Source of the DNA: Flavobacteriales bacterium
GTDB lineage: Bacteria; Bacteroidota; Bacteroidia; Flavobacteriales_F; PHOS-HE28
Length of the DNA: 64,000 nucleotides
NCBI GenBank assembly: GCA_019638085.1
Contig: JAHBUL010000012.1
Coordinates: forward strand, 62,001 to 126,000
Direction: 5' to 3'
A model generated the notes under the pieces. That model was not told the DNA's origin and ran no database searches. It worked only from the letters and a program-made list of their open reading frames with translations. Both the position numbers and the translations under genes were made by a program. Below, one piece after another: positions 30,108 to 33,622 of the stretch. Position 1 is the stretch's first letter, and each line of letters starts with the position of its first letter.

Positions 30108-31355
30108 TCATTCCACCAACGCTGTAACAGTTACTTCGGGATCTTTTGCACCTCCCACATAGTCCAATACCCTCAACATCACCCGGTCCAACAGGGTATC
30201 CGGACAACTGGCACCACTGGTGAGGACAATGGTGATGGGCCTTTTCGCGGGTAGCCAATCAGTGGTGCGTTCCAGCTTGTGTGCTGGATAGTTGAAATGC
30301 TCGATCTCACTGGCACTCCGTAGCTCCTTCTCGCCATTAATGAAGTAGGTGGGGAACTTCCCTTCCAGCAATTCCACAATATGACTGGTGTTGCTGCTGT
30401 TGTATCCGCCAACAACCAAGGCCAGGTCGGCCTCTTCCTTCAGCAGTTCATGGGTGGCGTCCTGATTGTCGTTGGTAGCGTAACAAAGGGTATCGCGCGT
30501 ATCCGCGAAATGGTTCTTTAGATCGGCTTCACCGTATTTCTTCAGCATTACCTGCTTCAGGTGGTCGGCGATGGCCTGCGTTTCAGTGGCCAGCATGGTG
30601 GTCTGGTTCACCACGCCGATCCGCTGTAGGTCGGTAGCGGGATCGAAGTTCGGAGTGCAGCGGGTACCGAAGAGTTCAAAGAAGCGTTCCACCGGCAATT
30701 CACCGGTGATGATGCGCCCTAGCTCCTCGGTTTCCACCATGTCCTTTACAATGACAGCCGGCGATCCTTTGGCCGTATGGCTGAATGTGGCGCGGGTTTC
30801 TTCGTGAGCGGCTTTGCCGTGGATCACTACGGTATGCTTCTGCTCCCCCAGTTGTGCGCTGCGTTTCCACACCTTCTCCACGAAAGGGCAGGTGGTGTTG
30901 TGCAGCAGCGGGTCGATGCCCAGTGCTTTCAAGCGCGCCTCTGTTTCCAACGTGGTCCCAAAAGCGGGAATGATCACGATATCATCACTCTTCAGTTCGC
31001 CCCAATCCATGAGCATCTGGCCGTGGGTGTCCTGGATGAAGCGGAGGCCGTGGCTCTCCAGGTCCTCGTTCACCTCAGGGTTATGGATCATCTGGCTCAA
31101 AAGAAAGATCCGTTTGCCGGGATTATCCTCCAAGGCTTTGTAACTGATCTCGATGGCGTTCTCCACACCGTAACAGAAGCCAAAATGCCGCGCCAGCACG
31201 AAGCGAACGGCTCCCAGGTCCAGCAGAGTGGGAGAGAAGTCCTTTTTCCGTGGGTCCTGCACCTTTCGGAAGGCTTTCAGGCGGCCAATGAGGTTGGAGC
31301 GATAGTGGGCAGGAATGTCGAAGGTGCGCATGATGGACTGTAGGGGCTGCGTCAT
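30108..31355 (-). CDS. ispH: 4-hydroxy-3-methylbut-2-enyl diphosphate reductase
   Basis: A 415-residue iron-sulfur enzyme for the last step of the MEP isoprenoid pathway, making IPP and DMAPP from HMBPP. It is the long form of IspH found in cyanobacteria and Bacteroidota, with an N-terminal extension of about 50 residues. The three cluster cysteines are in FGFCYGVENAI, TTCPFVEKVW and SGASCPDTLLD; conserved histidines are in SQMIHNPEVN and VVIHGKAAHEE. Start: ATG 31355 has an AGGAA-like site upstream, while ATG 31331 (MRTFDIPAHYRSNLI) fits homologues better; both remain possible. Divergent from rpsA. Confidence 0.95.
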   Translation of the reverse strand: MTQPLQSIMRTFDIPAHYRSNLIGRLKAFRKVQDPRKKDFSPTLLDLGAVRFVLARHFGFCYGVENAIEISYKALEDNPGKRIFLLSQMIHNPEVNEDLESHGLRFIQDTHGQMLMDWGELKSDDIVIIPAFGTTLETEARLKALGIDPLLHNTTCPFVEKVWKRSAQLGEQKHTVVIHGKAAHEETRATFSHTAKGSPAVIVKDMVETEELGRIITGELPVERFFELFGTRCTPNFDPATDLQRIGVVNQTTMLATETQAIADHLKQVMLKKYGEADLKNHFADTRDTLCYATNDNQDATHELLKEEADLALVVGGYNSSNTSHIVELLEGKFPTYFINGEKELRSASEIEHFNYPAHKLERTTDWLPAKRPITIVLTSGASCPDTLLDRVMLRVLDYVGGAKDPEVTVTALVE

Positions 31356-31654
31356 GAGGTTCCTTCATGGGAACTTCCGACAGCCATATCGGGGATACAT
31401 TTTCTGTCCGCCAAAGTTAACCTTCCCTTTCCGGCGGGGTGTACGCTTTGCCGTAAACCACAAAACACTCTAACAGTGCCCTGTCCGCTCCTTTTTTTGG
31501 GGCTCGAAGGTCGAGGAGTAGTGCGTGGTTGACCTTCGGAACTGGAACACTGAACAAGAGGAGATCCAGATCTGGGTGGGATTTTGATCGAAAAGTATGG
31601 AACACGTTGATATTCTTAGTACTTTCGCGCCCCCAATTCGGGAAAGTCCGCACA

Positions 31655-31710
31655 ATGGCACTGCGGGCCAACCACAACAAACCCTCACGGGCAGTGCCAT
31701 CCTGGCCCGC
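31655..31710 (+). promoter_or_regulatory. Structured rpsA 5' leader with two overlapping pairings
   Basis: Stem A pairs 31655-31664 (ATGGCACTGC) with 31691-31700 (GCAGTGCCAT), 10 perfect base pairs. Stem B pairs 31663-31670 (GCGGGCCA) with 31703-31710 (TGGCCCGC), 8 perfect base pairs. The order is A-B-A'-B', so the stems form either a pseudoknot or mutually exclusive folds. The element ends 19 bases before the rpsA start codon. Ribosomal protein S1 controls its own mRNA in Escherichia coli, so autoregulation is a reasonable inference. Confidence 0.5.
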
Positions 31711-31729
31711 GATACAAACCGACATTTAT

Positions 31730-33622
31730 ATGTCATCAGTAGAGAACAACAAGGTCGTATTCGCTGAACCACCTGCCGATTTCGATTGGGACGCCCTCGA
31801 GAGTACAGCTCCGGCAGCCACGGAAGCGCGCGCCAAAATGGAGCAGCGTTACGAGGATACCCTCAGCAGCATCACGGAGAAGGAAGTCCTGATGGGCACC
31901 GTGGTGGGCATGAACAAGAAGGAGGCTGTGATCAACATCGGATACAAGTCCGAGGGTGTGGTCCCTTTGAGTGAATTCCGTTACAAGCCGGACCTGGCCA
32001 TTGGCGATAAAGTGGAGGTGTACATCGAGAAGCAGGAGGACAAGGCCGGCCAGATGATCATCTCCCACAAGACCGCACGTGTTCACAATGCCTGGGGCAA
32101 GGTGAACGCAGCAATGGAGACCAATGAGATCATCATGGGCTACGTGAAGTGCCGCACCAAAGGCGGCCTCATCGTGGACGTGTTCGGCATCGAGGCCTTC
32201 CTGCCAGGCAGCCAGATCGACGTGAAGCCGATCCGCGACTACGACCAGTACGTAGGCAAGAACATGGAGTTCAAGGTGGTGAAGATCAACCAGGAGTTCA
32301 AGAACGTGGTGGTCTCGCACAAAGCCTTGATCGAAGCCGAGATCGAAGCCCAGAAGAAGCAGATCATCGGTGGTTTGGAGAAGGGCCAAGTGCTGGAAGG
32401 CACCGTGAAGAACATCACCAGCTATGGTGTGTTCGTGGACCTTGGAGGCGTGGATGGTCTGGTGCATATCACCGATCTGAGCTACGGCCGCGTAAGCCAT
32501 CCGGAAGAGGTGGTGAAGCTGGACGACAAGATCAACGTAGTTATCCTCGACTTCGACGACGAGAAGCGCCGCATTGCTCTTGGCCTGAAGCAACTCAGCC
32601 CGCATCCTTGGGACTCCCTGGATGCCAACCTCAACGCTGGTGACAAGGTCACCGGTAAGGTGATGGTGATCACCGATTACGGCGCTTTCGTTGAAGTAGC
32701 CGACGGCGTGGAAGGCTTGCTGCATGTGAGCGAAATGAGCTGGAGCCAACACCTGCGCAGCCCGAAGGATTTCCTGAAGGAAGGCCAAGAGGTGGAAGTG
32801 CAGATCCTCAACATCGACCGCGAGGAGCGCAAGATGAGCTTGGGAATGAAGCAGCTCGCTGCCGACCCTTGGGAGGATATCGAGCAGAAATACCCTGTCA
32901 ACTCCCGCCACACCGCCAAGGTGCGCAACTTCACCCACTTCGGTATCTTCGCTGAACTGGAGGAGGGCGTGGACGGATTGATCCACATCAGTGACCTCAG
33001 CTGGACCAAGCGGGTGAAGCACCCGAGCGACTTCTGCAAGATCGGTGACGAGGTGGAAGTGCAGGTACTGGAGGTTGACAAGGAGAACCGTCGCCTCAGC
33101 CTTGGCCACAAACAAGTGGAGGAGAACCCTTGGGAGGTGTTCGCCGATACCTTCCAAGTGGGCAGCGTTCACGAAGGAACCATCACCAGCCGCACCGGTA
33201 GCACCTTTGTGGTGGCCCTGCCATACGGCGTGGAAGGAACCGTGGCGCTGAAGCACCTGAAGAAGGAGGACGGAAGCAAGGCAAATGTGGAGGACAAGCT
33301 CACGTTCAAAGTGCTTGAGTTCAACTCCGAGGCGCGTCGCATCGTGCTGAGCCATACCCGCACCTTCGAGGAAGGGGATGACAGCGCGGAGCATGCACCG
33401 GCCAAGCGTGGTGGACGTAAGGGTTCCGACGAACATGGCGGAGGCCAAAGCCCAAGCGTACGCAGCGTGAACGAGAAAGTGGAGAAGTCCACGCTCGGTG
33501 ACCTCAGTGTACTGAGCGACCTGAAGAGCGCGATGGAGACGAGCGAGCGCGGTGGTAAGTCCACCAAGCGCAAGTCCCGTCGCGACGAGGACATGGAGGA
33601 TATGGACGACATGGAGGGCTAA
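31730..33622 (+). CDS. rpsA: 30S ribosomal protein S1
   Basis: A 630-residue RNA-binding protein that helps load mRNA onto the 30S subunit. Six S1 domains are visible at about residues 53, 137, 222, 308, 395 and 480, each opening with a G-x-V strand (for example GTVVGMNKKEAVINIG and GTVKNITSYGVFVDLGG). A charged tail of about 80 residues follows (basic GGRKGS then acidic DEDMEDMDDMEG). The start is the ATG of MSSVENNKVVFAEPP; the ORF extends to 31529 but that part covers the leader and promoter. A TACTTTCG near-match to the -7 element at 31620-31627 gives a leader of about 100 bases. Confidence 0.97.
   Translation: MSSVENNKVVFAEPPADFDWDALESTAPAATEARAKMEQRYEDTLSSITEKEVLMGTVVGMNKKEAVINIGYKSEGVVPLSEFRYKPDLAIGDKVEVYIEKQEDKAGQMIISHKTARVHNAWGKVNAAMETNEIIMGYVKCRTKGGLIVDVFGIEAFLPGSQIDVKPIRDYDQYVGKNMEFKVVKINQEFKNVVVSHKALIEAEIEAQKKQIIGGLEKGQVLEGTVKNITSYGVFVDLGGVDGLVHITDLSYGRVSHPEEVVKLDDKINVVILDFDDEKRRIALGLKQLSPHPWDSLDANLNAGDKVTGKVMVITDYGAFVEVADGVEGLLHVSEMSWSQHLRSPKDFLKEGQEVEVQILNIDREERKMSLGMKQLAADPWEDIEQKYPVNSRHTAKVRNFTHFGIFAELEEGVDGLIHISDLSWTKRVKHPSDFCKIGDEVEVQVLEVDKENRRLSLGHKQVEENPWEVFADTFQVGSVHEGTITSRTGSTFVVALPYGVEGTVALKHLKKEDGSKANVEDKLTFKVLEFNSEARRIVLSHTRTFEEGDDSAEHAPAKRGGRKGSDEHGGGQSPSVRSVNEKVEKSTLGDLSVLSDLKSAMETSERGGKSTKRKSRRDEDMEDMDDMEG

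Follow-up and report, generated by a model that had tools for sequence, protein, structure and literature searches.

The leader of rpsA, the gene encoding ribosomal protein bS1, was analysed in a 64,000-nucleotide stretch of a Flavobacteriales bacterium genome (assembly GCA_019638085.1, contig JAHBUL010000012.1, positions 62,001 to 126,000 of the forward strand), referred to below as the window and numbered from its first base. Covariation shows that this leader is built of two hairpins, H1 and H2, whose loops are joined by a kissing helix. This kissing-hairpin element is a cis-acting RNA that occupies most of the rpsA 5' untranslated region (UTR), and it is read here, with a probability of roughly 0.6 and largely by analogy, as an autogenous operator for bS1.

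All parts of the element lie on the forward strand. Hairpin H1 (31646-31668) pairs GUCCGCA (31646-31652) with UGCGGGC (31662-31668) around the 9-nt loop CAAUGGCAC, and is supported by covariation, RNAalifold and strand swapping. Hairpin H2 (31685-31712) pairs 31685-31692 with 31705-31712, with one A-C mismatch (31687/31710), and is supported by its pairing, by RNAalifold and by swaps outside the genus. The 7-bp kissing helix, supported by covariation and loop swapping, joins AUGGCAC (31655-31661) to GUGCCAU (31694-31700), which lies within the H2 loop. H2 runs directly into the motif GAUACAA (31711-31717), found 10-16 nt before the AUG.

Leaders were sampled from the same genus, from the class Bacteroidia and from further families; a search at the level of the order yielded members of this genus only. 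Within the genus about 45 relatives have the fold, with a varying primary sequence and a fixed order of parts: H1 (loop of about 9 nt), linker, H2, GATACAA and start codon. In the genus alignment (A1, 35 distinct leaders, MAFFT), 95.4% of the cells of the combined H1, loop-loop and H2 model are paired, a figure that falls to 30-49% once the partners are displaced by 1-3 columns; cells changed on both sides number 99 (shuffle mean 31), and none of 500 shuffles attained any of the five measures used. Changes on both sides occur at all seven pairs of the kissing helix (95.3% paired) and at six of the seven pairs of H1 (94.9% of cells paired), while H2 (95.9% paired) is near-invariant within the genus. 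RNAalifold, run unguided, recovered H1 and H2, and AUACAA is invariant in all 35 leaders. Counted on the rpsA sense strand, there are 68 G-U pairs against 12 A-C mismatches; the constraint therefore acts on RNA of rpsA sense, and a palindrome acting at the DNA level is ruled out by the same asymmetry.

In the loop-swap test, hairpins were picked blind to their loops, and loops were exchanged between species. True loops exceeded swapped ones with z = 8.5 in the genus and z = 12.8 outside it (0/10,000 permutations each). Exchanging the strands of H1 and of H2 gave 0/5000 permutations both in and outside the genus, where the strands of H2 also vary together. The leader is composed of two hairpins with complementary, co-evolving loops, as is expected of a kissing-loop complex, and H1, H2 and the loop-loop helix each outperform shuffles, slides or swaps.

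Leaders with the same H1, H2 and kissing fold occur in several other Bacteroidia families. These families carry numbers (f32, f52 and so on), the named loci being from Crocinitomicaceae and from Flavobacteriales metagenome-assembled genomes. For distant leaders the MAFFT alignment (A2) misaligned H1, and these leaders were therefore assessed by swaps and shuffles. A descriptor made up of H1, the kissing helix and H2, with ATACAA as its anchor, was positive in 33 of 36 genus leaders (the misses being L085, L112 and L119) and in 35 of 38 other leaders carrying ATACAA, and in most leaders the structure score lay above all 100 dinucleotide shuffles. Loop pairs include CCCTAAT/ATTAGGG (L129), TCTCTAT/ATAGAGA (L136), CCGATG/CATCGG (L167) and, in Crocinitomicaceae, AACCTATT/AATAGGTT (L010). 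Loop swapping within family f32 had the same outcome as above (0/10,000). In f52 leaders L197, L200, L209 and L278-L291, the partner of the H2 loop apparently lies inside a 5'-terminal CCTTTT...AAAAGG hairpin, with no separate H1; the topology of this family appears to drift with the loop-loop pairing retained.

A covariance model built from leaders of the genus and searched against 44 of its genomes gave one strong match per rpsA (E < 1e-11), and all remaining matches had E > 0.002. Three matches lacking a listed rpsA also sit 5' of an rpsA fragment. Within these genomes the element is restricted to rpsA, the gene of the proposed ligand, and it lies directly 5' of rpsA in every relative with a readable full leader and gene. 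In the assembly of one relative (G013; C38 and C40) rpsA is present twice, both copies preceded by a kissing-hairpin leader, which probably reflects two strains, given 5% contamination. In the comparison with Rfam the leader matches no family: the window and 20 loci gave nothing at the gathering threshold, and 16 loci gave nothing at E<=1; one chance match had E = 7.9.

The operator reading draws on the position of the element and on known S1 biology. The distance from the end of ATACAA to the AUG is 10-16 nt in nearly all leaders, with a mode of 13, and in the window the AUACAA part of the motif occupies -18 to -13. Work on Flavobacterium johnsoniae discusses ribosome modelling that places domain 4 of bS1 at -12 to -15 (PMC6847099), and in Prevotella a hairpin at -21 leaves expression intact, while weaker structure over the ribosome-binding and start region lowers it (PMC3155529). 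The position of ATACAA and the Prevotella hairpin data together indicate that the kissing structure borders on the initiation region, with its tail where bS1 would contact the mRNA. In E. coli, bS1 is the autogenous repressor of its own mRNA, which lacks a Shine-Dalgarno (SD) sequence (PMC10931766), and feedback by bS1 is proposed here by analogy with gamma-proteobacteria, where rpsA is under autogenous control through a different RNA. The "only ligand" argument made for ribosomal-protein leaders (r-leaders; PMC7247131) was also applied to rpsA, as no other ribosomal-protein gene was seen among the genes examined downstream of the element in the window.

Under this operator model, the free structure would extend to about -20, stopping just short of the zone in which structure blocks initiation, and the rpsA mRNA would be translated. 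Free bS1 in excess over ribosomes, alone or with uS2, would bind the kissing complex and the GAUACAA tail, and would thereby occupy the site contacted by ribosome-bound bS1 and block loading of the 30S subunit. The protein would recognise shape together with GAUACAA, because the kissing sequence drifts freely.

Several points weigh against this model. Both the ligand, bS1, and the direction of regulation are inferred. bS1 binds unstructured A/U-rich RNA and unfolds structure, so that its recognition of a kissing complex is no given. A simple energy model prefers nested alternative folds of similar stability for the window sequence. Loop swapping was weaker in f52 (95/10,000), although single cases there look compensatory as well (GAGTTTC/GAAACTC, GGGTTTT/AAAACCC and CAAGAAAC/GTTTCTTG). 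When f52 and f20 were swapped together, the anchor put the 5' partner of both f20 leaders in the wrong place; by eye these pair GGTTTGAA with TTCAAACC (L208). Finally, the element is missing 5' of rpsA in other Bacteroidia families; these carry different rpsA leaders, so S1 control in the class as a whole does not require it.

The main rival, from which the evidence separates the operator weakly, is a constitutive translation enhancer or standby site, in which the kissing hairpins would keep the 5' UTR compact and offer GAUACAA as a single-stranded pad to 30S-bound bS1, so increasing rpsA translation free of feedback. The fixed spacing of 10-16 nt between ATACAA and AUG would suit such a site, as would the A-rich -12/-13 region that favours initiation in F. 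johnsoniae and the harmlessness of the Prevotella hairpin at -21. Other genes of the phylum are nevertheless translated without such a structure, and a single-copy element specific to rpsA better fits feedback by the gene product, which makes the enhancer an unlikely reading, although the best placed of the alternatives.

A role as a 5'-end element for mRNA stability or processing, with the kissing fold shielding the transcript from 5'-end-dependent decay, is improbable: the structure does lie near the presumed transcript start, and relatives have an extra small hairpin at the 5' end, but the invariant AUACAA and its fixed distance from the AUG would be left unexplained.

The sequence-only reading had joined two pairings, A and B, in a possible H-type pseudoknot, or alternatively in a switch between them. 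Both pairings are present and perfect: A, of 10 bp, pairs ATGGCACTGC (31655-31664) with GCAGTGCCAT (31691-31700), and B, of 8 bp, pairs GCGGGCCA (31663-31670) with TGGCCCGC (31703-31710), on the forward strand, in the interleaved order A-B-A'-B', with B' ending 19 nt 5' of the ATG at 31730. This complementarity speaks for the proposal, as does the similar stability of the stems taken singly (-15.4 kcal/mol for B, -16.9 kcal/mol for A). In the 64,000 bases, 63 perfect stems reach a length of 8 bp or more within a span of at most 70 nt, five of them 10 bp or more, and A and B are the only interleaved close pair. The two stems overlap by two bases (31663-31664), and the coordinates of that reading leave outside both the start of the hairpin at 31646 and the conserved GATACAA (31711-31717).

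What was borne out is a structured, pseudoknotted rpsA leader that is kept in relatives with compensatory changes. The expectation that both stems would be conserved in this way held for stem A, through a conserved 7-bp core that is the kissing helix (the 3 bp left over share bases with the H1 and H2 stems), and failed for stem B. In the genus alignment 70.7% of the cells of B are paired versus 70.2% in column shuffles, its covariation score is equalled by 194 of 500 shuffles, and in the swap test its own strands score 11.8 against 12.0 for swapped ones in the genus and 7.1 against 6.9 outside. Stem B joins the 3' strand of H1 to the 3' strand of H2 and so competes with both hairpins, which exclude it and do covary. 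Neither of its strands has evolutionary support; the covariation and swap tests led to its rejection as a conserved helix or switch, and the most natural reading is that it arises incidentally from GC-rich strands that resemble one another. A joint pseudoknot of A and B, or a switch between them, is thus very unlikely. Least credible of all is a transcription attenuator, in which alternative folds would stop rpsA transcription within the leader: competing pairings of similar energy do exist in the window, but H2 is followed by GAUACAA with no U-tract, and a terminator scan of 31640-31730 found nothing, which speaks against an intrinsic terminator or attenuator.

The rpsA gene itself (31730-33622, forward strand) encodes a bS1 of 630 aa in which PF00575 (S1) matches six stretches with a score of 277 bits, and the genome has no second full-length copy. 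Its divergent neighbour is lytB/ispH (30108-31355, reverse strand), and the segment was taken as the rpsA 5' UTR because it is located between these two divergent genes. A probable Bacteroidota -7 promoter box, TACTTTCG (31620-31627, forward strand; consensus TAnnTTTG), was recognised by its sequence and by the box found in relatives, most of which have a TAnnTTTG-like box about 80-95 nt 5' of ATACAA. Transcription starting after this box, at about 31631-31635, would give a 5' UTR of about 95 nt. A coding upstream extension of rpsA, whose frame is open to 31529 in the window, is not favoured, because relatives with open frames of about 625-629 aa begin at the same ATG and the leaders vary by indels. 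At the extreme 5' end of the transcript a weak small hairpin (31629-31643) precedes H1 and has a counterpart in many relatives, where 5'-terminal hairpins of the type CCCn...nGGG are seen, for example in L091 (CCCCAAAATGGGG), L110 and L167 (CCCTTTTCAGGG).

Other kinds of rpsA leader were observed in Bacteroidia. Most Bacteroidales leaders (L011-L081 and L137-L150) are without GATACAA and have a near-invariant AACATAATGTCTAAC-type element that closely follows the TAnnTTTG box, lies about 30-55 nt 5' of the ATG and may be another rpsA leader type; in some Muribaculaceae a strong hairpin takes its place. Families f38, f10, f34 and f37 have a strong SD-like AAAGGAG or AAGGAGG a few nt 5' of the rpsA start (L192, L194-L196, L198, L201, L202, L216, L219 and L243). 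This is unusual for Bacteroidota, which are said to make no use of SD sequences, with rpsU and rpsR named as the exceptions in the literature consulted.

An S1 leader of this form in Bacteroidota is undescribed in the searchable literature, as the sequence-only reading had also held, and may have been described before in subscription papers or preprints. The openly readable published lists of r-leaders contain no S1 leader outside gamma-proteobacteria, where an update on extraribosomal functions also places the conserved features of rpsA autoregulation (PMC10931766). A transcriptome study of Flavobacterium psychrophilum reports 64 structured 5' regions, with rpsA unmentioned in its main text. 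Initiation in Bacteroidia proceeds without SD pairing, and compensation by bS1 has been postulated, direct proof being lacking (PMC6847099).

The chances are about even that the kissing-hairpin RNA serves as an S1 sensor, a bS1 operator recognised by its shape, across a large part of Bacteroidia. If so, a lineage without SD pairing, whose initiation presumably depends on bS1, would match its supply of bS1 to its ribosomes. The element would then count as the first r-leader for S1 beyond the gamma-proteobacteria and, to our knowledge, the first r-leader based on a loop-loop kissing helix. Kissing hairpins add a fold to those among candidate ribosomal-protein leaders, and the comparison shows that rpsA leaders have been replaced in a lineage-specific way within one class. 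A conserved leader of the bS1 gene with an invariant motif at the bS1 contact position also offers a concrete RNA on which recognition of mRNA by bS1 can be tested.

Compared with known systems, the rpsA region of gamma-proteobacteria (E. coli) shares the gene, a structured leader beside an SD-less start and a model in which free bS1 competes with the 30S subunit, and is set apart by its description, which has neither kissing hairpins nor GAUACAA (PMC10931766). The r-leaders of L13, S4, S15 and S16 in Bacteroidia and Flavobacteria are likewise 5' UTR structures supported by covariation in the same lineages (Eckert and Weinberg 2020), in a table that has no S1/rpsA leader (PMC7247131). The leader motif of rpsB (S2) is structured and pseudoknotted and lies 5' of the gene for uS2, the partner of bS1 (PMC2704228), but no Rfam family matched the leaders tested here. 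In Flavobacteriales of the same SD-less group, rpsU (bS21) provides a case of autogenous control of a small-subunit protein that tunes initiation, which differs in using an extended SD read by ribosomes lacking bS21, with no mRNA fold (PMC9976891). Autoregulation of mycobacterial and E. coli rpsO (S15) also requires a pseudoknotted 5' UTR, although for a different ligand (PMC10931766).
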